Source: Embleya hyalina (lineage in GTDB: Bacteria > Actinomycetota > Actinomycetes > Streptomycetales > Streptomycetaceae). From it: 50,550 nucleotides of DNA. The position numbers and the translations under genes were made by a program. The DNA is taken from positions 588,784 through 639,333 of the forward strand of contig NZ_BIFH01000016.1 of NCBI RefSeq assembly GCF_003967355.1, given 5' to 3'. A model generated the notes under the pieces. It saw nothing but the letters and a program-made list of their open reading frames with translations. It was not told where the DNA came from and did no database searches. Below, piece by piece: positions 32,661 through 50,550 of this stretch. Each line of letters begins with the position of its first letter. Within the stretch, counting starts at the first letter, position 1.

Positions 32661-32676
32661 CCCGACCCGGTCATGC

Positions 32677-33563: not shown

Positions 33564-33623
33564 GTCGGATGCGCCCTCGCCCCCCGAATCCACGCGCCCA
33601 CCCGGCTCCCGCTCGACCCGAAT

Positions 33624-33635: not shown

Positions 33636-33636
33636 A

Positions 33637-33666
33637 TTGACAGTTCCGCCGTCGCGGCGGTCAACT
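33637..33666 (+). promoter_or_regulatory. Chitinase promoter
   Basis: A perfect TTGACA -35 hexamer follows the DasR-type operator by one base. TCAACT at a spacing of 18 bases is the best -10 candidate but is weak. The leader to the ATG would be about 170 bases and contains nothing else I recognise. Confidence 0.5.
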
Positions 33667-33840
33667 CGTCCTGCACACAGGCACCCCGGCACCTCCGGGT
33701 GCGCCCGGACGGCCTGCGCACGTCCCGCACCGAGGGAGCCTGACGTCCCATCAGGCGACGCGGCGCCGATCCGGGTCCACCTTCCACGCACACCCACGCC
33801 CGCAGGCAACCGCCCGGGCCGGTACGGGAGGCACACCACC

Positions 33841-35592: not shown

Positions 35593-35615
35593 TCGTCGGG
35601 CACGGGCGACGGGCG

Positions 35616-36227
35616 CTACACCGGGCGGATGTCCGCCCACAGCGCCACCGAGCCGGGTTCGAGCGGCGCCGTCCCGTCGGCGGCGCCGCTCGTCCACCAC
35701 AGGCCCCGCCCCGGTCGCAGCGCCGGGCCGGGGCCGCCGTGCGTGCCGCGCCCGGACAGCAGGTACAGCACACCGGCGTGCCCGGCGGGCAGCGGCACGG
35801 GAGCGTCGACGCGCCGGACGTCGGCGGTCCATCGGCCGCGCCGGGTCATGATGTTGAGCACCCGGACCGCGCCGCCGTCGCCGAGCAGGCGGGCCCGGAG
35901 CGTACGGTCGCCGGAGAAGGCGAACGGCACGGCGGCGCGGTCGAGCCGATGATCGAGCGGCGCGGCGCCGGTCGCACCGCCGCCGTCCGCGATCAGACGC
36001 ACGCCGTCGCCCGCCAGAAGGGTGATGGTGCGGTCGACCCCCGGGAACGGCGAGAACGGCCCGTCGGCGGCGATCGTGGCGATGCTCGCCCGCCAGCCGA
36101 AGTCCGCCGGGTCGCCGCCGCCCGGGCCCGCCGGCCCCGCGCACGCGATCTCCCGCGTGTCGCCGCCCCCGTTGCGCCACGGGCCGACGGGCAGCGTTTC
36201 GACGTCGAAGAGATGCGTCTGCGTCAC
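35616..36227 (-). CDS. HutD/Ves-family cupin-like protein
   Basis: The protein is about 203 residues. The family signature is at the N-terminus (LPVGPWRNGGGDTREIA), followed by GWRASIATIAADGPFSPFPG and VDRTITLLAGDGVRL, and repeated beta-rich cupin elements to the end. HutD proteins are linked to histidine use but have no proven reaction. No hut genes are nearby. I chose a GTG with a GCAGG-type site; an ATG six codons earlier lacks a ribosome binding site but adds only MEAGPY. It converges on the chitinase gene, 23 bases away. Confidence 0.85.
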   Translation of the reverse strand: MTQTHLFDVETLPVGPWRNGGGDTREIACAGPAGPGGGDPADFGWRASIATIAADGPFSPFPGVDRTITLLAGDGVRLIADGGGATGAAPLDHRLDRAAVPFAFSGDRTLRARLLGDGGAVRVLNIMTRRGRWTADVRRVDAPVPLPAGHAGVLYLLSGRGTHGGPGPALRPGRGLWWTSGAADGTAPLEPGSVALWADIRPV

Positions 36228-36343
36228 GTACGGGCCTGCTTCCATGGGGCCGGGAGGGCGCGGGATCGGGGCGGTGGGCCCGGGCCCGCCATGATGCCGG
36301 CCGCCGTGCGGGCATGCGCGCGCCGTGATCCCGACGCCGTCGC

Positions 36344-36676
36344 TCACCCGTGTTTGGCGACGGTGAGCAGTACCGCCGAATCCTCCAGGGCGTCCAGACT
36401 GTGTCGGGACTTCGGTACGACCAGGAAGTCGCCCGTCCGTCCCTCCCACGACGTCTCGCCGTCGATCAGGAGCACCCGCCCCCGCATCACCAGCAGGGTC
36501 GCCTCGCCGGGATTCTCGTGTTCGGACAGCGAGGTCCCCGCGTTCAGCGCGATCAGCGTCTGCCGCAACACGTGTTCGTGGCCCCCGTACACGGTGTGCG
36601 CGCTGCGCCCCGTAGAGGCGGTGGCGGCCAGCTTGAGCAGTTCGCGGACCTGGGCTTCCAAGGAGAGCTTTTCCAT
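36344..36676 (-). CDS. Small cupin protein
   Basis: The 110-residue single-domain cupin has an N-terminal helix (EKLSLEAQVRELLKLA) before the barrel, then SLSEHENPGEATLLVMRGRV (cupin motif 1 region with His and Glu) and GDFLVVPKSRHSLDALEDSA (motif 2 region). Only part of the usual metal-binding set is present. It stands between HutD and the MFS gene on the same strand but without tight coupling. The role is unknown; such proteins often bind metal or small ligands. Confidence 0.8.
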   Translation of the reverse strand: MEKLSLEAQVRELLKLAATASTGRSAHTVYGGHEHVLRQTLIALNAGTSLSEHENPGEATLLVMRGRVLLIDGETSWEGRTGDFLVVPKSRHSLDALEDSAVLLTVAKHG

Positions 36677-36728
36677 AGCCACAGTGTGCACACGAGCGCT
36701 CACAAAACCCCGGACGACCGCACCCGCG

Positions 36729-37907
36729 TCACACCGGAAGTTGCGCCGCCGCGCCGGGCCGCACCCGGTCCAGGCTCAGCCGCAGCGTCATGCAGGCCAG
36801 CGCGGCGAGGGCGAAACCGGCACCGAGCCAGGCGAGTTGCCGAGGTCCGGTGACGGACAGAAGCCAACCGCCGATCGTGGTACCCGCGGTGATCCCGAGG
36901 TTGGAGAAGGAGATGAACAGGCTGTTCCCGAACTCGGGGGCGTCGCGCGCGTCGCGTCCGAGCCAGTACTGGCCGACGATCAGCCCGCCGGAGTGCACCG
37001 CGCCCCAGATCGGTATCGCCACCAGCATCGGCGCCGTGTGCGGACCCACCGCGTAGAGCAGGACGTACACGGCCAGGCACAGGGCGGGAAAGGCGAGCGC
37101 GGTGCGGATCGGGTCACGCCGCAGCAGCGCGCCGAAGGCGAAGTTGCCGAGGATCATCACGAGGCCGAACACCATCAGCAGCGCGCCGACCCACGAGCCG
37201 TCCATCCCGGTGACCTCGTCCAGAAACTCGGCGAAGTAGCCGTACACCGAGAACATCGCCGCGAAGACGAAGACCACCGACAGGATGCTCAGCCACATCC
37301 GACCACCGCGCAGCACCCCGACCTGGGCGCCGTACGACAACCGACGCTCCACCGGCATGGTGGGCAAAAAGCGCAGGATGCCCAGGAAGGCGATCAGGTT
37401 GATCACCGCGCCGAACCAGAACGCCGCCTCCAGGGACGGATGTTCGGCCAGGTAGGCGGTCAGCGGAACGCCGAGGGCGAAGCCGGCGGTGACCCCGGCG
37501 AACACGCGGGTGGTGGCCCGCGTCGCGTCCGCCGCGGGGACCAGGCGGGCCGCGGTGGTCAGGGCGACGGAGAAGAACACGGGATGGACGACGGCGGGCA
37601 GGATCCGGAACGCGAGCATCACGTCGAACCGGGTGGTGAGCGCGTACACGGCGTTGGAGACCGCGAACAGCAGGATCGCCGAGGCCAGCACGGTCCTGCG
37701 GTCGATCCGCGACGCGAACAGCGTCATGAACGGCCCGGAGACCGCGATCACCAGGGCGAACGCGCCGACGAGGAGACCGGCGGTCGAGGTGCCGACGTGC
37801 AGCCGGTCGGCCACCTGCGGCAGCACGCCGACGATGCCCATCTCGGTGGTGATGATCCCGAATACGCCGAGGGCGAGGGTTGCGATCGTGACGGTGGTGG
37901 TTCTCAT
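36729..37907 (-). CDS. MFS transporter (12 TM, AraJ/DHA1-like)
   Basis: The 392-residue 12-helix transporter of the major facilitator superfamily starts MRTTTVTIATLALGVFGIIT, with the DHA1 motif between helices 2 and 3 (FASRIDRRTVL) and a motif C-like stretch in helix 5 (GVTAGFALGVPLTA). Such proteins export drugs, sugars or amino acids. An AAGG site lies upstream. The ArsR gene lies just upstream on the same strand, with a perfect operator palindrome in the gap, so substrate or inducer is probably read by that ArsR. Confidence 0.92.
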   Translation of the reverse strand: MRTTTVTIATLALGVFGIITTEMGIVGVLPQVADRLHVGTSTAGLLVGAFALVIAVSGPFMTLFASRIDRRTVLASAILLFAVSNAVYALTTRFDVMLAFRILPAVVHPVFFSVALTTAARLVPAADATRATTRVFAGVTAGFALGVPLTAYLAEHPSLEAAFWFGAVINLIAFLGILRFLPTMPVERRLSYGAQVGVLRGGRMWLSILSVVFVFAAMFSVYGYFAEFLDEVTGMDGSWVGALLMVFGLVMILGNFAFGALLRRDPIRTALAFPALCLAVYVLLYAVGPHTAPMLVAIPIWGAVHSGGLIVGQYWLGRDARDAPEFGNSLFISFSNLGITAGTTIGGWLLSVTGPRQLAWLGAGFALAALACMTLRLSLDRVRPGAAAQLPV

Positions 37908-37943
37908 CGTGGCCTTGTCGTTCGGTGTCGATGATCTCGGTGA

Positions 37944-37961
37944 TACATATCGAGATATGTA
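37944..37961. promoter_or_regulatory. Operator palindrome TACATATC-GA-GATATGTA upstream of the MFS gene
   Basis: Perfect eight-base arms with a two-base centre lie 37 bases before the MFS start. It is very A/T-rich in a GC-rich genome. The core ACATATCGAG recurs inverted upstream of the ArsR gene, so this is probably the ArsR binding site. Confidence 0.75.
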
Positions 37962-38021
37962 GATGCGTTTGCTCGTGCGTACGCACGTGTGTGGGTGCGT
38001 GCGACGGGCGGGTCGTCCGGG

Positions 38022-38333
38022 TCAGAGCTCGGTGCGGACGTGTTCCGCGAACTCGGCGATCGTGCGTTCGTTGCGCCGGTAGTACGTCCACTTGCCGATC
38101 CGCTCGGATTCGAGCAGACCCGCGTCCTTGAGGGTCTGGAGATAGCCGGACACCACCGACTGGGCCAGGCCGGCGCGGGACTGGATGTCGCCGACGCAGA
38201 CGCCGATGTGGAAGCCCAGGCCCTGCTGTCGGTAGGAGTCCTCGTCGAAGTACTCGGCGGGCTCCTTCAGCCACTGCATGAACCGGAGCCGGGCCGGGTT
38301 GGCGAGCGCCTTGTGTACGGCCAGGGGGTCCAC
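38022..38333 (-). CDS. ArsR-family winged-helix regulator
   Basis: This 103-residue regulator has ALANPARLRFMQWLKEPAEY for the first helices, GVCVGDIQSRAGLAQSVVSG for the helix-turn-helix, and the wing ESERIGKWTYYRRNERTI. The metal-site CxC motif of ArsR is absent; one Cys lies in VCVG, the common pattern of non-metal members that regulate transporters. GTG start with a GGAAGG site. It probably represses itself and the MFS gene through two TACATATC-type sites. Confidence 0.92.
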   Translation of the reverse strand: MDPLAVHKALANPARLRFMQWLKEPAEYFDEDSYRQQGLGFHIGVCVGDIQSRAGLAQSVVSGYLQTLKDAGLLESERIGKWTYYRRNERTIAEFAEHVRTEL

Positions 38334-38390
38334 TGCGGGCCGCCTTCCGGGGGGACGGGCGCCGAGAGGCGCGGGAAGGCATCCAGTTTT

Positions 38391-38402
38391 CTCGATATGT
38401 AG
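38391..38402. promoter_or_regulatory. Second ArsR operator half-site CTCGATATGTAG
   Basis: CTCGATATGTAG is the reverse complement of CTACATATCGAG, sharing ten bases with the palindrome upstream of the MFS gene. It lies 58 bases before the ArsR start and near the divergent SPW gene, which points to autoregulation. Confidence 0.6.
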
Positions 38403-38520
38403 TGGCTGTGTCAATCGTGCCGAACGAAATGTCGGTAAATATTGAGGTTTGGACGGGTTAGCCGCAGGTGGGAGGGCTATCAACCAAGGGACTGCGATTC
38501 TCGGAAAGAGGGTGGTGCAC

Positions 38521-38970
38521 GTGTCCACGTCGACATCGACATCGACAGCGCCATCGATTGAACAGCACCCCGACATAGTCAGCATGCGACTTCGTTCCGA
38601 ACGCGCCACCACCGGCGCGGTGGCGCAGGCCGCGGAAGCGTTGGGCGTGCTGTGCGGTGTGTACCTGGCGGCCTCCCCCTGGATCGTCGGGTTCAACGGC
38701 TTCACGACTTTGACCACGAACAACCTGATCACCGGCGTGGCGCTTGCGCTGCTGATGATGGGCGCCTTCGGGTCCGCCTACGAGCGCACGCACGCGATGA
38801 GCTGGGCCGCGTTCGGCATCGGTGTGTGGACGATCGTCGCGCCCTGGGCCGTGAGTGGTTCCTTCGACACCACGCGGACCATCACCAGCAACGTCATCGT
38901 CGGTGCGGTGGCGTGCCTGATGGCGCTGGTTCTCGCGCTCAGGGGTGTCATCGGGATCCACCGCTTGTGA
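38521..38970 (+). CDS. SPW-motif integral membrane protein
   Basis: The 149-residue protein has a low-complexity start (STSTSTST from a TCGACA-type DNA repeat), then two copies of the SPW module: LAASPWIVGFNGFTTLTTNN and later IVAPWAVSGSFDTTRTITSN. Each ends a pair of transmembrane helices, giving four helices. The family is widespread in actinomycetes and its function is unknown. GTG start after a GAGGG site; two GTGs a few codons upstream are also possible. Confidence 0.85.
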   Translation: MSTSTSTSTAPSIEQHPDIVSMRLRSERATTGAVAQAAEALGVLCGVYLAASPWIVGFNGFTTLTTNNLITGVALALLMMGAFGSAYERTHAMSWAAFGIGVWTIVAPWAVSGSFDTTRTITSNVIVGAVACLMALVLALRGVIGIHRL

Positions 38971-38993
38971 GTGATCCCGTCTGTGAGTGATCC
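38966..38993. repeat. Direct repeat TGTGAGTGATCC, 16-base period
   Basis: Two perfect 12-base copies, four bases apart, span the end of the SPW gene; the first one includes its stop codon. They may be a duplicated end or a binding site before the DUF3040 gene. Confidence 0.55.
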
Positions 38994-39110
38994 GAGCCCG
39001 AGACCGGGCCGCCGGTGAGTCCCGCCGGCGCACGGTTCGCCCCGGCGATTGTCGCCCGGCGTGCCCCGCCGGCAGGTCCCACCCTCGGCTCAGGCTGGGA
39101 GGTGGATGTG

Positions 39111-39605
39111 GTGAGCGGACCTTCGCTTTCGGGCCGGGAACGGCGCACCCTCGCGCGCATGGAGGAATCCCTGGCGCACGACGAGCAGTTGGTGGAACTG
39201 CTGCGCGTGTTCGACGACCCGCCCTCCGTACCGGCCCCGCGCCGCCGTCGAGTCGGCATCGGCGTGCGCATCGGCATGCCGCATTGGCCGACGATCCTGA
39301 AGTGGACGGCGCTGTTGTTGTCCGGCACCTCGATCGGGCTGCTGATCGCCGCGATCCTCACGGGAGCGCCCGTGGTGGTCCTGGTGGCGGTGGCCGTGTC
39401 GATGCCGGCATTGCTCCTGATCGGCGCCTTCGCCTACCTGAGGTGGCGCGCGGACGGCCCGGCGGGCGCCCGTGCGGTACGTCGTGGCCGGCGCACCCGT
39501 ACGCACGGTTGGCTGCGCGCACGCGGCGCCGATCGGGTCGACGGCGCGGGCGGTACGGACGGCACGGAGCGTCGCGGCAGCGACGACCGGCGCCGCGAAC
39601 CGTGA
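39111..39605 (+). CDS. DUF3040 membrane protein
   Basis: The 164-residue protein has the DUF3040 N-terminal signature LSGRERRTLARMEESLAHDE, an amphipathic helix. Two transmembrane helices lie at about 62-85 (ILKWTALLLSGTSIGLLIAA) and 90-110 (VVVLVAVAVSMPALLLIGAF), followed by a very basic C-terminal tail. Family members are small actinobacterial membrane proteins without known function. One of two adjacent GTGs is the start; the second has the better spacing (8) from GGGAGG. Confidence 0.85.
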   Translation: MSGPSLSGRERRTLARMEESLAHDEQLVELLRVFDDPPSVPAPRRRRVGIGVRIGMPHWPTILKWTALLLSGTSIGLLIAAILTGAPVVVLVAVAVSMPALLLIGAFAYLRWRADGPAGARAVRRGRRTRTHGWLRARGADRVDGAGGTDGTERRGSDDRRREP

Positions 39606-39683
39606 CCGATCCGGCGTCGACGCACGCGGCGGCGTGACCCGAGCGGGTTCGGCGCGCCCGGGCCGGTTCGGCGCGTCCTGCTC

Positions 39684-39710
39684 GGCGCGCGATCCGCGGC
39701 GTCGCGCGCC
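39684..39710. terminator. Bidirectional terminator between DUF3040 and the hydroxyacid dehydrogenase
   Basis: Perfect nine-base arms GGCGCGCGA and TCGCGCGCC with a nine-base loop stand in the 174-base gap between two convergent genes. Confidence 0.65.
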
Positions 39711-39779
39711 GGTCGGGCATCGCCCCGTCGCCTTCGGGGCGGACCGTCCGTCGGGATGTCGCCGGGCCCGGGGTGTTCG

Positions 39780-40721
39780 TCACTTCATGACGCGGATCGG
39801 GTCGCCGGTGAGGTAGGCGGCGATGTCCTCGACCGCGTCACGGTAGAAGGTCTCGTACAGCTCGCGCGTGACGTAGCCGATGTGCGGGGTGAGCACGACG
39901 TTGTCCAGCGTGCGCAACGGGTGGTCGGCCGGCAGCGGTTCGACGTCGTACACGTCCAGCGCCGCGGCGGCGATGGCTCCGCGGCGCAGGACGTCCAGGA
40001 GGGCGGACTCCTCGACGATGGGGCCGCGCGAGGTGTTGACCAGGATCGCGGTCGGCTTCATCCGGGCCAGTTGGGCGGCGCCGACCAGGCCCCGGGTGCG
40101 GGAGCCGAGGACGAGGTGGATGGACAGTACGTCGGACCGGGCGAACAACGTCTCCTCGGTCACCGCCGTCACGCCGTGCGCCGCGGCCCGCTCCGGGGTC
40201 AGGTGCGGGCTCCAGGCCACACACTCCATGCCGAACGCGTGGCCGATCCGGGCCACTTCGCTGCCGAGCCGGCCCAGGCCGAGCACGCCGAGCACCTTGC
40301 CGCGCAGTCCGACGCCGAGCCCGACCTGCCAGCCGCCGGCCCGCATCGAGCGCTCCTCGGCCGGCAGGTTGCGGGCGGCCGCCAGGATCAGCGCCCAGGT
40401 CAGCTCGGCGGTCGGATGGGCGACATAGCCCGTCCCGCACACCACCACACCACGCTCCCGCGCCGCCGCCACGTCGATCGCCGCGTTCACCGGCCCGGTA
40501 CTCACCAGCAGCCGCAGCCCGGTCAACCGGGCCAACACCTCCGCCGGAAACCGGGTGCGCTCGCGCATCGCGACGATCACCTCGAACCCGGCGAGCGCGG
40601 CGACCACCGCGTCACCGTCGGCGAACGGCTCGGTGAACACGTGCGGCTCGGCGTCGAGCGAGCCCCAGTCGGCCAGCCCCAGTGCCACGCCCTGATAGTC
40701 GTCGATGATGGCGATCCTCAT
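39780..40721 (-). CDS. D-2-hydroxyacid dehydrogenase family protein
   Basis: This 313-residue NAD-dependent enzyme has the nucleotide-binding motif VLGVLGLGRLGSEVARIGHA, followed by the substrate and catalytic residues of the family: Arg in LVNTSRGPIVEESALLDVL, Glu in ALDVYDVEPLP and His in NVVLTPHIGYVT. This is the D-lactate/phosphoglycerate dehydrogenase type, reducing a 2-keto acid; the substrate is not shown by context. A TAGCCT hexamer just before the ATG suggests a nearly leaderless transcript. Confidence 0.92.
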   Translation of the reverse strand: MRIAIIDDYQGVALGLADWGSLDAEPHVFTEPFADGDAVVAALAGFEVIVAMRERTRFPAEVLARLTGLRLLVSTGPVNAAIDVAAARERGVVVCGTGYVAHPTAELTWALILAAARNLPAEERSMRAGGWQVGLGVGLRGKVLGVLGLGRLGSEVARIGHAFGMECVAWSPHLTPERAAAHGVTAVTEETLFARSDVLSIHLVLGSRTRGLVGAAQLARMKPTAILVNTSRGPIVEESALLDVLRRGAIAAAALDVYDVEPLPADHPLRTLDNVVLTPHIGYVTRELYETFYRDAVEDIAAYLTGDPIRVMK

Positions 40722-41840: not shown

Positions 41841-41888
41841 CACGCCGACGGCCACCGCCCGGAACGGGGAGCGGTGGCCGTCGGCGTG
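41841..41888. terminator. Very strong terminator after the ring-opening amidohydrolase
   Basis: An 18-base perfect inverted repeat (left arm CACGCCGACGGCCACCGC) with a 12-base loop lies 22 bases after the stop codon on the minus strand. It is the longest perfect stem I found in the window. Confidence 0.9.
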
Positions 41889-41910: not shown

Positions 41911-43035
41911 TCAGTCCATCCGGACGATGGCCGCGACCGGACCGCCGCCCGAGGGGCCCTGGTGCACGGCGGCGACCGAGACGAACACGGCCGGGTCGCC
42001 GGTGACGGCCGCGGTCACGCCGCCGACGGTGGCCTTGATCTGCCGGTGCCAGTGCACGTCCGAGTCGTCCAGCATGATGTTGCGCCGGCCGCGCACGCTG
42101 CCGCTGGGGTCGGCCTCGCACTTGAGGAACACGTTGACCAGGCGGTCGCCGAGGTCGGAGGTGTGCGGACGCTCCGGCAGGTCGATCCCGGCCGAGCGGA
42201 TCGCCGACCAGATGCCGTCCGCGTCGAGCGCGTCCTTCATCACGCCGTGACCGACCCGGAACGGGCCGCCGACGCCGCGCACGTTGCCGACCACCACGAT
42301 CTGCGCGCAGTCGAGTTCCACGCCGGAGGAGCAGGACGCCACCGACGAGTACAGCGAGAGGTCGCGGTGGATCTGCTCGGCCGTCGGCAGGTCGATCTCG
42401 CCCAGCGCGACGGCGATGCCCAGCGCGGTGGTCGAGTTGGAGACGTCCATGGACTTGAGGGTGTCCTCGGTCCATACGTCGAACCCGCGCGACTTGGCGT
42501 CATTGATCGTGTCCAGGACCAGGAGCGGGGTCTTGGTCTGTACGTAGTGCACGTCGGCGGGGTCGGTGATGCCCGCGACGGCCATCGCCGCACGCACGCC
42601 GGCGGCGACCTTCTCCACCATCGGCACCCGGCCGATGTCCTCGGGCAGGATCGTCTCGCTCATCGCCACGCCGACCGAAACGCGCGGCTCGTCGGTGGGC
42701 TCGTACCGGTTCTCCGGCGCGTAGGCGAAGACGGTCGCGTGGGGGGAGATCACGCCGTCGGTGCCGCCGGACCAGACCAGCGGCACCTTGCCGGCCTCCT
42801 CGACCGAACGCTTGCCCTTGGCGACCAGCACCTCGCGGAAGGCGCGGTCGGCCAGGATGCGGGTGTAGTCGTTGACCCCGCCGTTGCCCTCGGTCTTGCC
42901 GATGACGGCGAGCACGTCGTCCGCGGCGAACACGCCGTCGTCGATCAGCTTGGCCAATCCGGACGCGTCGGTGACGCTCTCGATGGCGACCTTGTGAACC
43001 TCGATCGGCCTGGGCACTCGTTCCACCTCGTTCAT
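41911..43035 (-). CDS. Ring-opening amidohydrolase (cyanuric acid hydrolase / barbiturase family)
   Basis: The 374-residue enzyme has the three-fold repeat and Ser-Lys dyads of this family. Repeat 1: [15 protein letters not shown] and [17 protein letters not shown]. Repeat 2: [15 protein letters not shown] and [19 protein letters not shown]. Repeat 3: [28 protein letters not shown] and [20 protein letters not shown]. It hydrolyses a cyclic amide: cyanuric acid to carboxybiuret, or barbiturate to ureidomalonate. Sequence alone does not decide. Its ATG lacks a good ribosome binding site; a 135-base gap with repeats separates it from the upstream carbamate kinase, so it may have its own promoter. 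Confidence 0.9.
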
Positions 43036-43051
43036 TGGAGTTCGCTGAATT

Positions 43052-43087
43052 ACCGATACTGACCGATATCGCGACCGTTGCGGTCGC
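43052..43087. promoter_or_regulatory. Repeats and hairpin upstream of the amidohydrolase
   Basis: Two ACCGATA copies are exactly ten bases apart (one helical turn) and followed by a hairpin with seven-base arms GCGACCG and CGGTCGC around TTG. It lies 17-52 bases before the amidohydrolase start. It could be an operator, an attenuator or a leftover of transcription termination after the kinase gene. Confidence 0.45.
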
Positions 43088-43170
43088 TTCGGACGCTTTG
43101 GCTGCGCCGGACGCGTCGCCCGTCGCGCACACCCGCGCGGCACACGCCCACGCGTCGGGGGGTCGGGGCG

Positions 43171-44214
43171 CTACCCGGCGTCCGCCGCCACGGCCGGGGC
43201 CGCCGCCGCGATCGCTTCGACCGCCGCGACCGGGTTCGCCTCCACCACCGTGCCCGCCTCGCCGGCGACCGCGGCGGTGATCCGGTCCAGGGACGTGATC
43301 ACCGAGCGTCGGCCGCCCGCCTCGACGAAGCGCACCGCCGCCTCGACCTTGGGTCCCATGCTGCCACCGGCGAACTGCCCGGCCGCGGCGTGCCCGCGCA
43401 GCTCTTCCGGGGTGACCCGGCCCAGCTCGCGCTGGTTCGCGGTGCCGTAGTCGAGCATCGCGTTGGGTACGTCGGTGGCGATCACCAGCACGTCCGCGTC
43501 GACCGACGCGGCGAGCAGGGCCGCGGTGAGGTCCTTGTCCAGGACCGCCTCCACGCCGCGCTCGGCGCCGTCCGCGTCGCGCACCACCGGGATGCCGCCG
43601 CCACCGGCCGCGACCGTGGTGAAGCCCGCCGCGACCAGGGTGCGGATGGCCGGCGCGTCGACCACCTCCAGCGGATTCGGCGAGGGGACCACCCGACGCC
43701 AGCCCTTGGCGCCCCGGTCCTCCCAGTGTTGGCCGAGCGCGACGAAGCGCTCCGCCTCGGCCTGCGGCAGATGCCGGCCGACCGGCTTGGTGGGGTGCTC
43801 GAACGCCGGGTCGGCGGGGTCCACGAGGGTCCGGGTGACCACGGCCGCCACCCGGGCCGGCTGCCCGCGGCGCCGCAGCGCGGCCTCCAGGGCGGAGACG
43901 ACGGTGAAGCCGAGGGTGCCCTGCGTCTGCGCGCCGCACCAGTCCAGGGTCACCGGAGGCACGACGTGCGCGGTCAACTCGTTCTTGACCAGCAGGTTGC
44001 CCACCTGGGGGCCGTTGCCGTGGGTGAGCACGACGTCGACGCCGGAGACGATCAGGTCGGCCACCGCCTCCATCGCCACCGCGACGGCCGCCCGCTGGGC
44101 GTCGGGGGTGGCGCTCCCGTCCGGCCCCGTCATGGCGTTGCCGCCGAGGGCGATGAGCACTCTCCCGGTGCCGTTCGCGCTCCGGGTGCCGTTCGCGGTG
44201 CGGGGAGTTGTCAT
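43171..44214 (-). CDS. arcC: Carbamate kinase
   Basis: The 347-residue amino-acid-kinase-fold enzyme has RVLIALGGNAMTGPDG at the N-terminus, LTHGNGPQVGNLLVK, then FTTVAAGGGGIPVVRDADGA, VLDKDLTAALLAASVDADVL, IATDVPNAMLDYGT and the C-terminal GSMGPKVEAAVRFVEAGG. All are hallmark carbamate kinase motifs. It interconverts carbamoyl phosphate plus ADP with carbamate plus ATP. A good AGGAGAG site precedes the ATG. No arcA, arcB or carbamoyltransferase is nearby, so an arginine deiminase role is unlikely; its neighbour is a ring-opening amidohydrolase, so carbamate from ring breakdown is the likely link. Confidence 0.95.
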   Translation of the reverse strand: MTTPRTANGTRSANGTGRVLIALGGNAMTGPDGSATPDAQRAAVAVAMEAVADLIVSGVDVVLTHGNGPQVGNLLVKNELTAHVVPPVTLDWCGAQTQGTLGFTVVSALEAALRRRGQPARVAAVVTRTLVDPADPAFEHPTKPVGRHLPQAEAERFVALGQHWEDRGAKGWRRVVPSPNPLEVVDAPAIRTLVAAGFTTVAAGGGGIPVVRDADGAERGVEAVLDKDLTAALLAASVDADVLVIATDVPNAMLDYGTANQRELGRVTPEELRGHAAAGQFAGGSMGPKVEAAVRFVEAGGRRSVITSLDRITAAVAGEAGTVVEANPVAAVEAIAAAAPAVAADAG

Positions 44215-44305
44215 GTGTCGAACTCTCCTGTCCTGTCGTACGCGGGAGTCCCGATGCACCCGTCGCGGTTCGGCCCGTTGGGCCGTCGTCCGTCCGGGAA
44301 TTGGG

Positions 44306-44350
44306 ACTCTAGGTGGGGAACCGGGTCGATGGCTTGAGAGTCATTTGACT
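44306..44350 (-). promoter_or_regulatory. Carbamate kinase promoter with palindromic operator
   Basis: On the minus strand a TAGAGT hexamer (44306-44311) fits the actinomycete -10 pattern. About 27 bases upstream of it, a perfect palindrome AGTCA-TT-TGACT (44339-44350) covers the -35 side. The leader to the ATG is about 90 bases. Confidence 0.45.
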
Positions 44351-44385
44351 ACAAACACCGATCGATCTGGCAGAAATTGCCGAGT

Positions 44386-44426
44386 GGCGCGCGCCCGGGT
44401 TCGGGGGTCCACGCCGGGCGCGCGCC
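44386..44426. terminator. Strong terminator after the carboxyltransferase gene
   Basis: Perfect 13-base arms GGCGCGCGCCCGG and CCGGGCGCGCGCC enclose a 15-base loop, starting four bases after the stop codon. It separates the CoA-transferase/carboxyltransferase operon from the carbamate kinase promoter. Confidence 0.85.
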
Positions 44427-44430
44427 GGTT

Positions 44431-46011
44431 TCAGCAGCCGAGGCGGGCGTACCGCTCCAGCCGCGCCGCGCGGCGTTCCTCGGTCGGTCGGCGCAGCAGG
44501 CCGACCAGTTCGTACTCCAGGACCTGCGCGAGCCGGGCCAGGAACGCCATCGGCTCGTCGGCCGCGTCGGGCCGCTCCGCGACGATCCGGTCCACCACGC
44601 CGTCGCGCAGCAGGTCGAGCGAGCGGATGCCCTGCGCCGCGGCGATCTCGGCGCCGCGGGTGGGCGTGCGGTAGCGCAGCGCCGAGGCGCCCTCGGGCGG
44701 GAGCGGGGACAACCAGCCGTGCTGGGCGCAGAGCACCCGGTCGGCGGGCAGCAGCGCGAGCGCTCCGCCGCCGGCGCCCTGGCCGAGCAGCAGGCACAGG
44801 GTCGGCGTCGGCAGGGTGACCAGTTCGGCCAGGCAGCGGGCGATCTCGCCGGCCAGTCCGCCCTCCTCGGCCTCCGGGCTGAGTGCCGCGCCGCCGGTGT
44901 CCACGACGCTGACCAGCGGCAGGTCGAGTTCGGCGGCCAGGCGCATGCCGCGGCGGGCCACCCGCAGGCCCGCCGGGCCGAACGGGCCGTGGCTGGACTG
45001 GCGGGCGCGGTCCTGGGCGAGCACGACGCAGGGCGCGCCGCCGAACCTGGCCAGCGCGAGCAGCAGGCCGGGGTCGCTCTCCCCCTGGCCGGTGCCGTGC
45101 AGGGGCACCACGGCGCTCGCCGCGTGCCGCAGCAGGGCGCGCGCGCCGGGGCGTTCGGGCCGACGGGAGAGTTCGACCGAGGTCCACGCGGGTACGTCCG
45201 CCAGGTCCTCGACGGGCAGCGGGGCCACGTCGGGCAGGTTCTCGCGCGGCGCGGTGACGATGTCCAGGACCCGGGCGGCCACGTCGCCGAGCCGGTCGGG
45301 CTCGACGACGGCGTCCACCAGGCCGTGCGCGTACAGGTTCTCCGCGACCTGGACACCCTCCGGGAACGGCCGGCCGTACAGCGCCTCGTAGACGCGCGGG
45401 CCGAGGAAGCCGATCAGCGCGCCCGGTTCGGCGGCGGTGACGTGGCCGAGCGAGCCCCAGGAGGCGAGTACGCCGCCGGTGGTCGGGCCGCGCAGGTAGA
45501 CGAGGTAGGGCAGGCCGGCGCTCTTGTGCGCGGCGACGGCGGCGCTGATCCGGACCATCTGGAGGAAGGCGACCGTGCCCTCCTGCATCCGGGTGCCGCC
45601 GGAGGTCGGCGAGGCGACCAGGGGCAGGCCCTCGGCGGTGGCGCGTTCGATCGCGGCGACCAGGCGCGAGGACGAGGCGACCCCGATCGACCCGGCCAGG
45701 AAGCCGAATTCGCAGGCCACCACGGCCACCCGGCGGCCCCGGATCCGGCCCTCGCCGGTGACCACGGACTCGTCGACGCCGCTCTTGGCCTCGGCGGCGC
45801 GCAACTCGTCGCGGTAGCCGGGGTCCAGGCGTTCGGGGCGGTGCGGCGGGGCGTCCCAGCTCGTCCAGGAGTCGGGGTCCAGGACGAGGCGGATGAGGTC
45901 GTGCGCGCCGACACGGGGGCGGCGGTGCGGCGGGGCGGGTTCGGCCGTCACCGCTTTTGCCCCCACCGGTTCGGTCCCCACCGGTTCGGCTCCCACCGGT
46001 TCGGCCCTCAC
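44431..46011 (-). CDS. Fused AccD/AccA-like carboxyltransferase without zinc finger
   Basis: This 526-residue fusion has an N-half like the beta carboxyltransferase (ESVVTGEGRIRGRRVAVVAC, FGFLAGSIGVASSSRL, TSGGTRMQEGTVAFLQM) and a C-half like the alpha subunit (SVVDTGGAALSPEAEEGGLA, LLGQGAGGGALALLPADRVL). The four-Cys zinc finger of bacterial AccD is missing. No biotin carboxylase or carrier protein gene lies in the window, so biotin-dependent acetyl-CoA carboxylation needs partners elsewhere; a decarboxylase or transcarboxylase role (compare malonate decarboxylase MdcD/MdcE) is possible. The GTG start overlaps the CoA-transferase stop (GTGA). The first 25 residues are five VxxEP-like repeats; a later GTG (45951) is an alternative. 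Confidence 0.85.
   Translation of the reverse strand: MRAEPVGAEPVGTEPVGAKAVTAEPAPPHRRPRVGAHDLIRLVLDPDSWTSWDAPPHRPERLDPGYRDELRAAEAKSGVDESVVTGEGRIRGRRVAVVACEFGFLAGSIGVASSSRLVAAIERATAEGLPLVASPTSGGTRMQEGTVAFLQMVRISAAVAAHKSAGLPYLVYLRGPTTGGVLASWGSLGHVTAAEPGALIGFLGPRVYEALYGRPFPEGVQVAENLYAHGLVDAVVEPDRLGDVAARVLDIVTAPRENLPDVAPLPVEDLADVPAWTSVELSRRPERPGARALLRHAASAVVPLHGTGQGESDPGLLLALARFGGAPCVVLAQDRARQSSHGPFGPAGLRVARRGMRLAAELDLPLVSVVDTGGAALSPEAEEGGLAGEIARCLAELVTLPTPTLCLLLGQGAGGGALALLPADRVLCAQHGWLSPLPPEGASALRYRTPTRGAEIAAAQGIRSLDLLRDGVVDRIVAERPDAADEPMAFLARLAQVLEYELVGLLRRPTEERRAARLERYARLGC
45937..46011 (-). repeat. Five 15-bp tandem repeats coding for VRAEP-like pentapeptides
   Basis: Each unit begins with an in-frame GTG and encodes VRAEP, VGAEP, VGTEP, VGAKA and VTAEP in turn. 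Since every repeat supplies a start codon, the true translation start within the array is ambiguous, and unit number can change without a frameshift. Confidence 0.75.
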
Positions 46012-47213
46012 GCGCGCCGCGCGGCGTGCAGGGCGCGGGCGTCCTCGGCGTCGAGCCAGGCCTGCACGCTGTCCGTGTGCTGGCCGAGCGTCGGCGGGGC
46101 GTCGTGCCGCCGACGGCCGTCGTCGCTCGTACCGTCGACACCGTCGAGGCGGATCGGCGGGCCGGGCAGCGTGATCGGGCCGAGGGTGCTGTGCATGACG
46201 TCGAGCAGCAGGCCCTGCGACTTCGTCTGGTCCCAGTCGTAGACCCGGTCGATGGTGCGCACCTCGCCGGCCGGGATGCCGGCGGCGGCCAACTCGGGCA
46301 GCAGGTCGTCCACGTCGCGCGCGGCGAACGCGGCGTTGATCGCCTCCGCGAGCTCCGCCCGGTTGACCACGCGGTCGGCGTTCACCGCGAACCGGGCGTC
46401 GTCCACGGCCAGGCCGACCATCGGGGCGAACCTGGCCCACAACTTCTCGCTGCCCACCGCGACCTGGATGATCGCGTCCTTGCAGCGGTAGGAGCCGTAC
46501 GGCTGGAGCGAGGGGTGCAGGTTGCCCTGCGCGCGCCCGACCTGGCCGGCCACGGTGTAGTTGGTGCCCTGGAAGGCGTGTACGCCGACGATCGCGGACA
46601 GCAGCGAGGTGCGCACGACCCGGCCCAGGCCGGTGCGCTCGCGCTCGTGCAGCGCGGCGACCACGCCGTAGGCGCCGTACATCCCGGCCAGCAGGTCGCC
46701 GATCGGTACGCCGATGCGGGTGGGGTCGTCGGGGCCGGGGCCGGTCAGACTCATCAGGCCCGCCTCGCCCTGGGCGATCTGGTCGTAGCCGGGCCGGCCG
46801 CCCTGCGGACCGTCGTGGCCGAAGCCGGTGATGGACAACACCACCAGGCGCGGGTTGAGCCGGGTCAGCTCCTCCATCGGGAAGCCGAGCCGGTCGAGCA
46901 CGCCGGTGCGGAAGTTCTCCACGAGCACGTCGCTGTGCCGGATCAGCCGGGCGAGGGTGGCCCGGCCGTCCTCGGTCTTCAGGTCGAGGACTATCGACTC
47001 CTTGTTGCGGTTGCAGGAGAGGAAGTAGGTCGACTCGCGGGCGTCCTCGGCACCGACGAACGGCGGGCCCCAACCCCGGGTGTCGTCGCCGCCGTCGGGG
47101 TTCTCCACCTTGATCACCCGGGCGCCCATGTCGCCGAGCATCATCGCGGCGTGCGGGCCGGCGAGGGCGCGGGAGAGGTCGAGCACGACGAGATCGCAGA
47201 GCGGTCCGCTCAC
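46008..47213 (-). CDS. CaiB/BaiF-family class III CoA-transferase
   Basis: The 401-residue enzyme of the class III CoA-transferases begins LVVLDLSRALAGPHAAMMLG with DMGARVIKVENPDGGDDTRG, followed by FLSCNRNKESIVLDLKTEDG, VLVENFRTGVLDRLGF and RIGVPIGDLLAGMYGAYGVV, the region with the conserved active-site Asp. It moves CoA between carboxylic acids, typically dicarboxylates or branched acids. The GTG chosen has an unusually strong AAAGGGGGG site six to seven bases upstream; an ATG seven codons earlier lacks one. It overlaps the carboxyltransferase gene by four bases, so the two work together. Confidence 0.92.
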   Translation of the reverse strand: MSGPLCDLVVLDLSRALAGPHAAMMLGDMGARVIKVENPDGGDDTRGWGPPFVGAEDARESTYFLSCNRNKESIVLDLKTEDGRATLARLIRHSDVLVENFRTGVLDRLGFPMEELTRLNPRLVVLSITGFGHDGPQGGRPGYDQIAQGEAGLMSLTGPGPDDPTRIGVPIGDLLAGMYGAYGVVAALHERERTGLGRVVRTSLLSAIVGVHAFQGTNYTVAGQVGRAQGNLHPSLQPYGSYRCKDAIIQVAVGSEKLWARFAPMVGLAVDDARFAVNADRVVNRAELAEAINAAFAARDVDDLLPELAAAGIPAGEVRTIDRVYDWDQTKSQGLLLDVMHSTLGPITLPGPPIRLDGVDGTSDDGRRRHDAPPTLGQHTDSVQAWLDAEDARALHAARRA

Positions 47214-47302
47214 GTCGAACCCCCCTTTCTGCATGTGTGCGGCGGTGCGCAGTCCGGCGTCGAATGCGTCCAAGCTAGGCGGCTTCGGGGCGCTGCTCGC
47301 CG

Positions 47303-48229
47303 TCAGTTACTGCCCAAGGAATCGCGCTCGCTTGGCAATACTTGGTGTTGGAAGCCCGGTGCGTACTGGGCGTCGTCGGGGGCGAACACCCGTCGGGCGA
47401 AGTCCTCGAAGCGGGTCGGCGCCCGACCGAGCAGCATCGCCAGGGTGCGCGGATTGCCGGTCAGGCCGTGCCGGTCGTAGAACGCGAACATCGCGGTCAG
47501 CGTGTCCAGGGCGTAGCCGGACAGGCCGCCCGCGCGGGCGTTCTCGCACCACTCGCGCGGGTCGATCCGGCGTGCGGTGACGGGGCGATCCAGTACGGCG
47601 GCCAGGTGCGCGGCCATCAGTCGGGGCGTCAGCGCCTCCGGGCCGGCCAGTTCGTACACCGCGTTCTCGTGGCCGCTCTCGCACAACACGACGGCCGCGG
47701 CCTGGGCCACGTCACGCAGGTCGACGGCGGCGAACGGGGCGTCCACCCGGTACGGCACCACGTAGTCGCCGATCCGCACGATCGCGTCGCGGGCGTCCAG
47801 GATGTTCTGCTGGTACGGCCCGGGCTGCAGCACGGTCACCGCGAGGCCCGACTCGAACAGGGCCTCCTCGACCCGCGCCTTGGCCTCGTGATGCGGCATC
47901 GCCCGCAACTGGGGCCGCAACACGGAATGGAACACGAACCGGTCCACCCCGGCCCGCCCGGCGGCGGCGATCACGGCGCGCCCGATGGCCGGTTCGTCCG
48001 GGTGCACGTTCGGCGCGATGTGATAGATCGCCTCGCACCCGGCAAGCGCCTCGGCGAGGTCGGCCGGCTCGGTGACGTCGCCCACCACCGCCTCGCTCGC
48101 CCCGGCCGCGACCGCCACCGCGACCTGCTCGGGCCGCCGGACCAACGCCCGCACCCGCACCCCACGCTCGGCCAACGCCCAGGTCAACGCCCGCCCGGTC
48201 TTCCCCGCGGCCCCGGTAATCACGATCAT
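47303..48229 (-). CDS. NmrA-like NAD(P)-binding oxidoreductase/epimerase
   Basis: The 308-residue atypical short-chain dehydrogenase has the cofactor loop MIVITGAAGKTGRALTWALA, adenine-binding acidic residue in VVGDVTEPADLAEAL, and FVFHSVLRPQLRAMPHHEAK in place of a YxxxK site. C-terminal features (VTVLQPGPYQQNILD; YELAGPEALTPRLMAAHLAA) match the NmrA/azoreductase-like group. Members act as redox sensors or reduce small molecules. It lies 89 bases upstream of the CoA-transferase on the same strand and may be the first gene of that transcript. Confidence 0.9.
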   Translation of the reverse strand: MIVITGAAGKTGRALTWALAERGVRVRALVRRPEQVAVAVAAGASEAVVGDVTEPADLAEALAGCEAIYHIAPNVHPDEPAIGRAVIAAAGRAGVDRFVFHSVLRPQLRAMPHHEAKARVEEALFESGLAVTVLQPGPYQQNILDARDAIVRIGDYVVPYRVDAPFAAVDLRDVAQAAAVVLCESGHENAVYELAGPEALTPRLMAAHLAAVLDRPVTARRIDPREWCENARAGGLSGYALDTLTAMFAFYDRHGLTGNPRTLAMLLGRAPTRFEDFARRVFAPDDAQYAPGFQHQVLPSERDSLGSN

Positions 48230-48461: not shown

Positions 48462-49241
48462 TCAGGAGGCGCGGTTGCCGCGGCGCTTGCGGAGGATCAT
48501 GCCGCCGCCGACGAGGGCCGCGGCGGTGGCGAGGAGGCCGCCCACCGCCACGCCGCCGGTGCTGGCGAGCGAGCCGCCGCCACCGCCGCCGGTGGTCGCG
48601 GGCGGGGTGGCGGTCGCGGTCGCCGAGGTGGCGGGCGACGAGGACGCGGACGTCGACGGGGTGCCGGTCGGCGGGGCCGTGGTCGGCGTCCCACTGGTGG
48701 GCGGTGCCGTCGTCGGGGGTTGGGTGGTGGGCGGTGCCGTGGTCGGCGGGGCGGTCGTGGGCGGCTGGGTGGTGGGCGGAGTGGTGGTCGGCGGGGTCGT
48801 CGGCGGCTTCGTGGGCGTCGACTTCGCCGGGCAGGTGTGGGACAGGTTGAACCAGTCCACGCCGCCGCCCTTGACCTGGGCGACCGCCGACGTGAGCTTG
48901 GCGCCCGCCGGCGACGCCACGTACGCGTGCTTGTCGCTGGGCGGGCCGAAGGCGGTGACGACCTGCTGGCCACCGGGCGCGAACGTCACGGTCAGCTTGA
49001 CGAAGGCCGTGCTGTTCCCGGGCAGTACGAAGTGCCAGCCGTCCTGGTCGGTCGGAATCCAGGCCGGGCATCCGCCCTCGTGCGAGACCCCGGGGTCCGT
49101 GGCGGACACGGGCGTCTTCTGGTGCAGGTTCACGGTGTACGTGTTGCCGGAGGCGAGCGCGGGCGCCGCGCCGACCGCCACGGCCAGTGACGGTATGGCC
49201 AAAACGGCCGCCCAGCGGGCGAGCGTGGAGGACGAAGACAT
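48462..49241 (-). CDS. LAxTG-anchored cell surface protein
   Basis: The 259-residue exported protein has a signal peptide (LARWAAVLAIPSLAVAVGAA, cleavage near residue 31) and a globular domain of about 105 residues with two Cys (GGCPAW and HTCPAK). A long threonine/proline stretch made of TTxPP units follows, then Ser/Thr/Ala-rich sequence and the wall-sorting signal LASTGG with a hydrophobic helix and the basic end RKRRGNRAS. LAxTG is the motif read by class E sortases of actinomycetes. The globular domain is not recognised. An AAGAGGT site precedes the ATG. A sortase gene is not in the window. Confidence 0.88.
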   Translation of the reverse strand: MSSSSTLARWAAVLAIPSLAVAVGAAPALASGNTYTVNLHQKTPVSATDPGVSHEGGCPAWIPTDQDGWHFVLPGNSTAFVKLTVTFAPGGQQVVTAFGPPSDKHAYVASPAGAKLTSAVAQVKGGGVDWFNLSHTCPAKSTPTKPPTTPPTTTPPTTQPPTTAPPTTAPPTTQPPTTAPPTSGTPTTAPPTGTPSTSASSSPATSATATATPPATTGGGGGGSLASTGGVAVGGLLATAAALVGGGMILRKRRGNRAS

Positions 49242-49610
49242 GGTGATACCTCTTGGGCAGGAGTGAATCGCATCCCGGAGGATCACTCGCGTCACCCGAA
49301 ACGAGAATCGCCGCCGAGACGGTTCGCCGCACTCGCCCGAAGACCGCTTCGTCCCCCCCAGGACCGAAAAAGACCCTCGATGAGGGCAGCCGAGATTCCC
49401 ACTCCGGCGAGTTCCCCGTCAAGATCGAACTGTCCACAATGGCGGCTGATTTCCGCTTTTGCCACCGGGCTGGGATACAACAATTTCCGCCATCACGACA
49501 CAGTCGGGATGGTCGGCCCAAGTCGGGATGAACTCATGGTGATCAAGGGGTCGCGGGCCGTCGACGGGGGCGGGGACGGTGGCCGGAAATGGACTTCTCC
49601 CGGGGCGACG
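49242..49610. other. Intergenic region upstream of the LAxTG gene
   Basis: This 369-base non-coding stretch has lower GC content than its surroundings. It carries a candidate promoter for the surface protein, listed separately. There is no convincing small gene; open frames on either strand show no domain. The remainder up to the PucR stop holds nothing I can name. Confidence 0.5.
49393..49422 (-). promoter_or_regulatory. Candidate promoter of the LAxTG gene
   Basis: On the minus strand TTGACG (49417-49422) and GAATCT (49393-49398) are 18 bases apart. The leader to the ATG would be about 145 bases. Confidence 0.35.
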
Positions 49611-50550
49611 CTAGGTCGGGTTCGGGCCTCGGGTGGTGAGGAGGTCGCGGGCGGTGAGGGCGGCGCGTAGGGGGCCCTGGCGGTCGGGGGCGTCGGGGCT
49701 CACGTGGAGCAGGGATTCGATCAGGGCGAGGCGCTGGTGGACCGATTGCCGGCGGAGGAACAGGACGCCGGCCGTCTCGGTCTTGGAGCAGCCGCAGCGC
49801 AGGTACGCCTCGAGGGTGTCCACCAGGCCGGTGCCGCGGGTGGCGTCGGCGGCCAGGAGCGGGCCGAGTTGGTCCTCGACCAGGTCGGCCAGTTCCTCCG
49901 GGGGCAGCCCCTCCAGGAGGCGTTCCAGGGCCCAGTCGTCGGCCAGCACGGTTTCGGCGACGCCGGTGGGCCGGATCGGGTACACCCGGCGGGCCAGGCG
50001 CAGGGTGTCGCGCGCGGCGCGCAGGCTGTGTCCGACCCGGGCCACGTCCCGCACGAGCGGGCCGAGGGCGGCGGTCGGCTCGTGGCCGGCGGCAGTGGGC
50101 AGGCCGAGGCGGGCGGCGAGCTCGGCGATGTGGGTGGGGCGGTCCAGGGCGATCAGGGCGTACGCGCCTCCCGGCCCGTCGCTGACCAGGCCGCGGCCGC
50201 CGCACGCGCGCAGTCCCTCGTACAGGGTGGTCACCGCCTGGACCGGGTCGGGCCGACTCAGCGCGATGGCCGCCCACGCGGCGGTCCCGGCCGGGACGAG
50301 GCCGCACACCGTCAGCCGAGCGGCCACCTCGCGCGGGGGCAACGCGTCGCCGAGCAGCCCCTCGACGAGCTCCCGCCGCTCTCGGCCCACCCAGCCACCA
50401 CGGTCGGCGAGCCGCAACAGCGCCGGCGCGAACACCTGCGCCGCGTGCTCGGCCACCTCCCGCGCGATCGCCGCTCCCGCGGTCGACCAGGGGCCTTCGG
50501 CGGAGGCGGCACGCGGCGTGCGGGCGCTGCGCGCGGCCCTGGCCGCGGCG
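49611..50550 (-). CDS. PucR-type helix-turn-helix regulator (partial, 5' end outside window)
   Basis: The frame continues to the right edge; a GTG at 50456 is internal rather than the likely start. The visible part of about 312 residues has a middle domain (AAWAAIALSRPDPVQAVTTL, then GPGGAYALIALDRPTHIAEL) and the C-terminal PucR helix-turn-helix LVDTLEAYLRCGCSKTETAG plus LFLRRQSVHQRLALIESLLH. PucR proteins often control purine or related nitrogen-heterocycle catabolism. It lies beyond the LAxTG gene from the amidohydrolase cluster, so a link to that pathway is possible but unproven. Confidence 0.9.
   Translation of the reverse strand, partial: AAARAARSARTPRAASAEGPWSTAGAAIAREVAEHAAQVFAPALLRLADRGGWVGRERRELVEGLLGDALPPREVAARLTVCGLVPAGTAAWAAIALSRPDPVQAVTTLYEGLRACGGRGLVSDGPGGAYALIALDRPTHIAELAARLGLPTAAGHEPTAALGPLVRDVARVGHSLRAARDTLRLARRVYPIRPTGVAETVLADDWALERLLEGLPPEELADLVEDQLGPLLAADATRGTGLVDTLEAYLRCGCSKTETAGVLFLRRQSVHQRLALIESLLHVSPDAPDRQGPLRAALTARDLLTTRGPNPT

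Follow-up and report, generated by a model that had tools for sequence, protein, structure and literature searches.

A stretch of 50,550 nucleotides from the 12.05-Mb genome of the soil bacterium Embleya hyalina (G000:C16:588784-639333; hereafter the window) carries five minus-strand genes that probably encode the later steps of oxidative pyrimidine catabolism, leading from uracil via barbiturate to acetyl-coenzyme A (acetyl-CoA). They encode an NmrA-like protein, a class III CoA-transferase of the CaiB/BaiF type, a fused AccD-AccA-like protein (AccDA), a carbamate kinase and a ring-opening amidohydrolase of the AtzD/Bar family, and profile matches confirm all five as named in an initial annotation of this DNA. 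More specifically, it is proposed, with a probability of roughly 0.52, that barbiturase-bearing actinomycetes use an energy-conserving, phosphorolytic version of the pyrimidine route. Here, an AllFGH-type complex would split ureidomalonate, and the CaiB-type transferase and AccDA would form a route from malonate to acetyl-CoA that is free of both biotin and acyl carrier protein (ACP) and that may also occur alone, together with the carrier MatC. The genes, their families, the signature residues of the barbiturase, the linkage and the co-occurrence are direct observations.

In the proposed pathway, uracil would be imported by a uracil/xanthine-type permease and converted to barbiturate by a molybdenum hydroxylase. 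The barbiturase of the window would then open the ring, giving ureidomalonate, which, with phosphate, the AllFGH-type transcarbamylase would cleave to malonamate and carbamoyl phosphate. From carbamoyl phosphate and adenosine diphosphate (ADP), the carbamate kinase of the window would form adenosine triphosphate (ATP) and carbamate, the latter decaying to NH3 and CO2. The second NH3 would be released from malonamate by an amidase, of the nitrilase family or, in other lineages, of the amidase-signature type, leaving malonate. Finally, the CaiB-type transferase would convert malonate to malonyl-CoA and the fused AccD-AccA protein would convert malonyl-CoA to acetyl-CoA without biotin, both being encoded in the window. 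All of these reactions are inferred, most of all the substrate on which AllFGH acts and the direction in which AccDA works. The heterocycle-to-CoA route sketched in the initial annotation appears largely right, but it covered only the end of the pathway, as the permease, the molybdenum hydroxylase, the amidase, HyuAB and AllFGH are encoded outside the window.

The barbiturase and the carbamate kinase

The amidohydrolase is, judged by its sequence, a barbiturase of group VI of the AtzD/Bar family, predicted to convert barbiturate to ureidomalonate (3-oxo-3-ureidopropanoate). Among solved structures, its closest relative is the barbiturase PDB 5hwe (595 bits, 75% identity over 366 residues), with cyanuric acid hydrolases reaching at most 319 bits. 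A signature distinguishing Bar from AtzD specificity has been given as Asn195, His321, Lys325, Val345 and Ser or Ala346 in AtzD numbering (PMC3758960). It is complete in the window protein (N200, H330, K334, V354 and A355), and in an alignment of 98 sequences with the window protein and 5hwe the five columns are the same in the 98 relatives and 5hwe, one row being gapped at four of the five positions. Of the two rings considered earlier, cyanuric acid and barbiturate, only the latter is therefore retained, a cyanuric acid hydrolase being rejected on the signature residues and the similarity to 5hwe.

The carbamate kinase scores 342 bits with TIGR00746, slightly under the cut-off of 358, and passes PRK12352 (297 versus 266 bits); it matches PDB 1e19 with 259 bits and is 40% identical to Escherichia coli AllK. 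Aligned to 1e19 and 1b7b, it retains the motif TKPVG or TKPIG, the motif DKD and the PK of GPK/LPK, and the lysines of TKPVG, DKD and GPK are presumably catalytic. A role in recovering ATP, as suggested previously, is supported at the level of sequence.

The neighbourhood of at least 80 barbiturase loci (77-98% identity) was compared using 10-kb flanks, so that gene counts are lower bounds; the counts over barbiturase loci, here and below, are those among the matches listed. Of the 77 loci whose upstream sequence extends for 1 kb or more, 66 have a carbamate kinase gene on the barbiturase strand within 3 kb upstream, and this linkage is beyond chance. Where at least 9 kb of upstream sequence was available (64 loci), a CoA-transferase or AccDA is found in 29 loci and both in 15, HyuB in 13 and HyuA in 9. 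The CoA-transferase lies within 400 bases of AccDA on the same strand in 15 of the 22 barbiturase loci bearing AccDA. The neighbourhood analysis that had been recommended for the amidohydrolase thus gives a clear result for carbamate kinase and a moderate one for the CoA-transferase or AccDA. Downstream of barbiturase, many loci have genes for SseB, chorismate synthase, shikimate kinase, DHQ synthase and DHQ dehydratase; these were regarded as neighbours from the core genome and not considered further. Likewise, an upstream CN_hydrolase (f10) and aminotransferase (f4) were left aside as a probably unrelated omega-amidase pair.

The AllFGH-type complex and the wider gene set

Barbiturase loci such as L012, L016 and L081 led to the wider gene set, comprising an AllG homologue (PF06545), an FdrA-like protein, a uracil/xanthine-type permease, subunits of a molybdenum hydroxylase, CoxG and a CN_hydrolase. 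In the source genome, adjacent AllH-AllF-AllG genes are found on another contig (C37:40916-44629), and the proteins are 42% (AllF), 49% (AllG) and 36% (AllH, over 113 residues) identical to those of E. coli K-12. In E. coli, the complex uses phosphate to split oxalurate into oxamate and carbamoyl phosphate, and its genes form one operon with that for the carbamate kinase AllK (PMC11326118). In nitrifiers, AllFGH and AllK genes adjoin triuret genes (PMC12625717), and the complex therefore has other settings as well. Ureidomalonate (HOOC-CH2-CO-NH-CO-NH2) differs from oxalurate (HOOC-CO-NH-CO-NH2) by one additional CH2. By analogy, AllFGH may cleave ureidomalonate phosphorolytically, yielding malonamate as well as carbamoyl phosphate and so supplying the substrate of the kinase. 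A dedicated ureidomalonase would then not be needed, its place being taken by the AllFGH-type complex and carbamate kinase. The initial annotation saw no ureidomalonase in the window and left the nitrogen step open, and it is the wider gene set that points to a transcarbamylase.

Using AllG alone as a proxy for AllFGH, co-occurrence was surveyed in 394 genomes of the class. The barbiturase query finds matches in 81 genomes, five of which were set apart as cyanuric-hydrolase-like (best match below 50% identity), leaving 76 barbiturase-type genomes. AllG is present in 74 of these 76 and in 14 of the 318 others (Fisher's p = 7e-63, ignoring relatedness), and in none of the five cyanuric-hydrolase-like genomes; one genome, G297, was counted as AllG-positive from an incomplete match (182 positions). 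The pairing holds within the Streptomycetaceae sample (n = 249), where AllG occurs in 6/6 barbiturase-type genomes and in 5/241 genomes without a barbiturase match, one of the latter matches (G188) falling under the family cut-off. It also holds across lineages, as 15 of the 16 sampled actinomycete families with a barbiturase-type genome include an AllG pairing. Among 38 selected genomes, 34 carry AllG (33/36 without two low-identity ones). Distances were obtained for 70 of the 74 double-positive genomes; barbiturase and AllG share a contig in 47 and lie within 35 kb of each other in 31 of those, one pair being 1.7 Mb apart.

In G023, AllG-AllF-AllH is divergent from a PucR regulator, and next in order are the permease, the flavin adenine dinucleotide (FAD), iron-sulfur (FeS) and molybdenum subunits of the hydroxylase, CoxG, CN_hydrolase, HyuA, HyuB, CoA-transferase, AccDA, carbamate kinase and barbiturase. 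The run from permease to barbiturase is uninterrupted, with AllH and PucR assigned by Pfam. Closer to the source organism, Embleya sp. NBC_00888 has the full set together with XdhC, CoxE and MoxR-type genes (2144177-2182234), and E. scabrispora (G020) has a similar full set (123941-162483), the set spanning 38-39 kb in both. Embleya and Nonomuraea records from a plasmid collection proved to be without gene annotation in the corresponding stretches. Fourteen clusters were assembled, mostly picked for the closeness of barbiturase and AllG, so that complete sets are overrepresented in the gene counts. All 14 contain AllG, with AllF called in 11 and AllH in 5, and HyuA/HyuB is found in 13, the stretch from G630 being too short to tell. 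HyuA and HyuB are nearest to the caprolactamase subunits CapA and CapB, far below the cut-offs (525 and 202 versus 1000).

The operon slot between the molybdenum hydroxylase and HyuA is occupied by a CN_hydrolase in six clusters (G023, G374, G425, G485, G513 and G562) and by an amidase-signature protein in six others (G321, G464, G495, G560, G615 and G627), the latter assigned by Pfam for G464 and from N-terminal sequence for the other five. Neither is found in this slot in G307 or in the cut G630 stretch. Two unrelated amidases sharing one slot fits amide hydrolysis, for example of malonamate to malonate and NH3, with ureidomalonate as the rival substrate.

The molybdenum subunit carries the loop PYRGAGRPQ in 14/14 sequences. 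The large subunit of G023 (L129:16717-19215) and its relatives match the NCBIfam model for aerobic CO dehydrogenase group 5 (1457 bits versus a cut-off of 950). The CO dehydrogenase loop is AYXCSFR, and it is absent from these molybdenum subunit sequences; the group 5 name therefore looks doubtful and is probably a misannotation. The enzyme may instead be a uracil hydroxylase, a reading that fits the context.

The CoA-transferase and AccDA as a candidate malonate module

The best NCBIfam match of the CoA-transferase is succinate--glutarate CoA-transferase (319 bits, below the cut-off of 750). The protein contains the motif GYDQ, in which we take the Asp of GYD to be the functional residue of class III CoA-transferases. 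AccDA combines PF01039 (191 bits) and PF03255 (154 bits). It is closer to AccD and AccA than to the malonate decarboxylase subunits MdcD and MdcE, and it stays below the cut-offs of all four: TIGR00515 (174 versus 317 bits), PRK05724 (151 versus 357), MdcD (55 versus 278) and MdcE (23 versus 237). No cysteine precedes the AccD core, the first being that of VVACEF, and AccDA therefore lacks a Cys4 zinc ribbon. Genes for biotin carboxylase or biotin carrier protein were not recognised in the loci read, where unlabelled genes were scanned in part; the initial annotation had described a zinc-finger-less carboxyltransferase without biotin partners. Neither an MdcA transferase nor an MdcC acyl carrier protein was recognised in these loci, although no search was aimed at them. 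The source genome encodes a second AccDA (C14:716136-717641), 72% identical to the copy in the window and located away from the pathway genes.

AccDA is found in 135 of the 394 genomes (E <= 1e-80), and its use as a pathway-specific marker was rejected on this account. Several survey matches, including G334, G432, G441, G479 and G608, contain one or two internal stops, perhaps where the match overruns the end of the gene or where copies are decaying. In 15 AccDA loci from genomes without barbiturase, a MatC-type carrier is present in four (L211, L216, L217 and L220). Three of these (L216, L217 and L220) also have a GntR-type (GntR/FCD) regulator, that of L217 being the only one run against Pfam, and three (L211, L217 and L220) have a CoA-transferase beside AccDA and MatC. 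In the other 11 loci, neither MatC nor a CoA-transferase was recognised among five genes on either side. The survey of MatC was extended to 80 AccDA genomes out of 135 (the source genome and 79 that lack barbiturase) and to 80 of the 259 genomes lacking AccDA. A full MatC domain occurs in 23 of the former, 16 of which have one whose start is no more than 3.8 kb from AccDA, and in none of the latter, three of which have weak partial matches over the cut-off. The source genome itself has no MatC. This linkage, seen in a minority of genomes, lends a degree of independent support to the view of CoA-transferase and AccDA as a malonate module and favours the earlier reading of a conversion of malonate via malonyl-CoA to acetyl-CoA. 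It is possible that MatC, AccDA, a GntR-type regulator and a CoA-transferase constitute a malonate utilisation operon in actinomycetes without barbiturase.

Alternative readings, gene layout and related systems

Several observations weigh against the proposed pathway. At the level of the gene set, a CoA-transferase or AccDA was found in only the 29 of 64 barbiturase loci noted above, and 27 of the 64 have neither these nor HyuA or HyuB; both CoA-transferase and AccDA are also missing from five assembled clusters (G307, G321, G495, G560 and G615). The hydantoinase-like HyuA/HyuB and NmrA have no place in the proposed pathway. AccDA is widespread, and of the 15 AccDA loci without barbiturase only four show MatC and three a CoA-transferase. 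The pairing of barbiturase with AllG has exceptions in both directions. Two barbiturase-type genomes lack AllG (G292, which is 72% complete, and G468), as do three of the 36 selected genomes left after the low-identity ones are removed (G252, G264 and G277). In the Streptomycetaceae sample, G018, with a match of 43% identity and so not barbiturase-type, carries AllG, and G099, the other low-identity genome, does not. Moreover, the kinase is not constant. Among the 11 loci without an adjacent carbamate kinase, whole-genome search finds another one (46-49% identity) in six genomes and no match at E <= 1e-25 in five, several of these genomes being drafts. AllG is kept in four of these five (G633, G635, G265 and G636), and kinase and AllG are therefore separable, the kinase being dispensable where AllG is present. 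G252 has neither a kinase match nor AllG, whereas in G264 AllG is missing and the kinase is a distant one. Without the kinase, carbamoyl phosphate could feed arginine or pyrimidine synthesis. Finally, the barbiturase scores above the cut-off of NF052395, the NCBIfam model for cyanuric acid amidohydrolase (481 versus 360); this model is read as spanning both barbiturase and cyanuric acid hydrolase.

Three other explanations of the locus can be considered. Since family-level models fit both rings, the amidohydrolase could open cyanuric acid to carboxybiuret, and the amidase of G464 resembles AtzE of the biuret-hydrolase type to some extent (262 bits, below the cut-off of 426). Yet, the signature residues, kept in the relatives wherever they are readable, and the large margin in favour of 5hwe make this very improbable, and no biuret or allophanate hydrolase was found above cut-off among the proteins scanned. 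A classic hydrolytic route is rather unlikely; here, a ureidomalonase, represented by the CN_hydrolase or the amidase, would form malonate and urea, and AllFGH and the kinase would merely adjoin for the catabolism of purines via oxalurate. Such a ureidomalonase activity, yielding malonate and urea, was reported in 2001 by Soong et al., cited in PMC3758960, and speaks against a phosphorolytic step. In addition, a CN_hydrolase or amidase does occupy a similar place in the operons, PucR-type regulators take their name from purine catabolism, and carbamate kinase is missing from some genomes that keep AllG. However, a merely adjoining purine branch would have to coexist with the presence of AllG in 74/76 barbiturase-type genomes and 0/5 cyanuric-hydrolase-like ones, and with the 66 of 77 loci in which carbamate kinase and barbiturase are co-directional. 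In the clusters read, whose unlabelled genes were partly scanned, neither ureidoglycolate nor allantoin genes were recognised, the genomes not being searched for them.

The third explanation leaves out the malonate module: AccDA would be a genuine carboxyltransferase for acetyl- or acyl-CoA, relying on the biotin carboxylase and carrier of a housekeeping system, and the CaiB-type protein would act on another acid. The far better scores of AccDA with AccD and AccA than with MdcD and MdcE, and its presence in many genomes without barbiturase, mostly without an adjoining MatC (4/15 loci with it), are in line with this. In the other direction point the missing zinc ribbon, the loci read, in which no biotin carboxylase or carrier gene was recognised beside AccDA, and MatC, which lies near AccDA in 16 genomes and is never complete in the 80 AccDA-less ones. 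On balance, this explanation is considered unlikely, and the phosphorolytic pathway with a malonate module attached in part of the genomes is preferred.

The positions of the genes and signals are listed in Table 1. The gene calls made by script come from a simple GC-position caller, and some genes were missed or given a wrong start. For the barbiturase, the start was taken as the ATG at 43035, the longest open reading frame (ORF) opening at a GTG at 43143. The GTG start of AccDA overlaps the stop codon of the CaiB gene, and translational coupling is therefore suggested. The strong terminators described previously for both transcription units are borne out as strong hairpins but not as canonical terminators, as both lack a T-tract and a consensus terminator scan found nothing at either, after AccDA or after the barbiturase. 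Upstream of NmrA, the PucR-type regulator has copies of 87-98% identity in E. scabrispora, Embleya NBC_00888 and G004, and its position is thus kept in all three other Embleya-type genomes examined; it is possibly a local regulator. NmrA-like genes also occur in six other clusters (L013, L014, L016, G560, G627 and G321); NmrA was therefore not accepted as a purely local accident, though it is rare overall (3 of the 64 barbiturase loci with at least 9 kb upstream).

Table 1 Coordinates of genes and hairpins in the window and of related genes on contig C37 of the source genome
Feature	Coordinates	Strand	Basis
Barbiturase (AtzD/Bar family ring-opening amidohydrolase)	41911-43035	-	PF09663 495 bits, TIGR02714 543 bits
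Carbamate kinase	43171-44211 (ORF readable from 44259)	-	TIGR00746, PRK12352, PDB 1e19
AccDA, fused AccD-AccA-like protein, proposed biotin-independent malonyl-CoA decarboxylase	44431-46011	-	PF01039, PF03255
Class III CoA-transferase (CaiB/BaiF), proposed malonate CoA-transferase	46008-47273	-	PF02515 392 bits
NmrA-like NAD(P)-binding protein	47303-48229	-	PF05368 94 bits
PucR-type regulator (HTH_30 and GGDEF_2)	49611-50456	-	Profile match and conserved position
Hairpin 3' of barbiturase, without T-tract	41841-41888	-	78-base stretch, minimum free energy -52.8 kcal/mol, z -5.5
Hairpin 3' of AccDA, without T-tract	44386-44426	-	78-base stretch, minimum free energy -41.6 kcal/mol, z -3.3
HyuA/HyuB (C37)	7099-11096
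CN_hydrolase to permease (C37)	31615-38602
PucR (C37)	38871-40649
XdhC (C37)	50047-51153

Elsewhere in the window, a serine/threonine protein kinase is fused to a family 3 solute-binding domain (6053-8374), and a protein of 1535 amino acids is an alpha-(1->3)-arabinofuranosyltransferase of the AftD type (22189-26796; PF11847, 727 bits), here in a Streptomycetaceae genome. A Pro/Thr-rich protein with LASTG, a hydrophobic stretch and RKRR at its end (48462-49295) looks like a sortase-anchored surface protein.

The closest known system is the oxidative pyrimidine pathway of barbiturase and ureidomalonase (Soong et al., cited in PMC3758960), which shares a homologous barbiturase, the intermediates barbiturate and ureidomalonate, and malonate as end product. 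Here, by comparison, an AllFGH-type complex and carbamate kinase would stand in the place of ureidomalonase, and a module from malonate to acetyl-CoA is present in part of the genomes. The oxamate branch of allantoin degradation in E. coli likewise has homologues of AllF, AllG, AllH and the carbamate kinase, at the identities given above, and acts on an acylurea with a free carboxylate, as is proposed here. It differs in that the genes are here ordered AllH-AllF-AllG and linked to barbiturase, with ureidomalonate as the proposed substrate and malonamate as the product.

For the malonate steps, the rhizobial mat system consists of the malonyl-CoA decarboxylase MatA, the malonyl-CoA synthetase MatB, the carrier MatC and the GntR regulator MatR. 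The proposed module resembles it in leading from malonate via malonyl-CoA to acetyl-CoA and in the four loci with MatC beside AccDA, three of which also have a GntR-type regulator, but the CoA-transferase would replace MatB and the fused AccD-AccA protein would replace MatA. According to PMC5534430, Mdc is a carboxyltransferase-like, biotin-free decarboxylase acting on a malonyl thioester. AccDA is proposed to share with MdcACDE this carboxyltransferase-like decarboxylation without biotin. Unlike MdcACDE, it would use malonyl-CoA, and its sequence is nearer to AccD and AccA; no ACP or MdcA was recognised in the loci read.

The oxidative pyrimidine route has been known since the 1950s, and the available text of PMC3758960 names ureidomalonase as an activity without a gene. 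In the open literature searched, barbiturase was not found linked with carbamate kinase or with a uracil-malonate gene cluster, nor barbiturate with oxamic transcarbamylase, nor ureidomalonate with carbamoyl phosphate; an earlier description may exist. The widely conserved gene set appears to vary the known pathway by a phosphorolytic nitrogen step and a partly attached malonate module. It provides a testable parts list and predicts ATP-yielding phosphorolysis as the key step, by which energy and both nitrogens of uracil would be recovered. Finally, it suggests a function for the widespread fused AccD-AccA protein and points to a second likely role of AllFGH across many actinomycete families.

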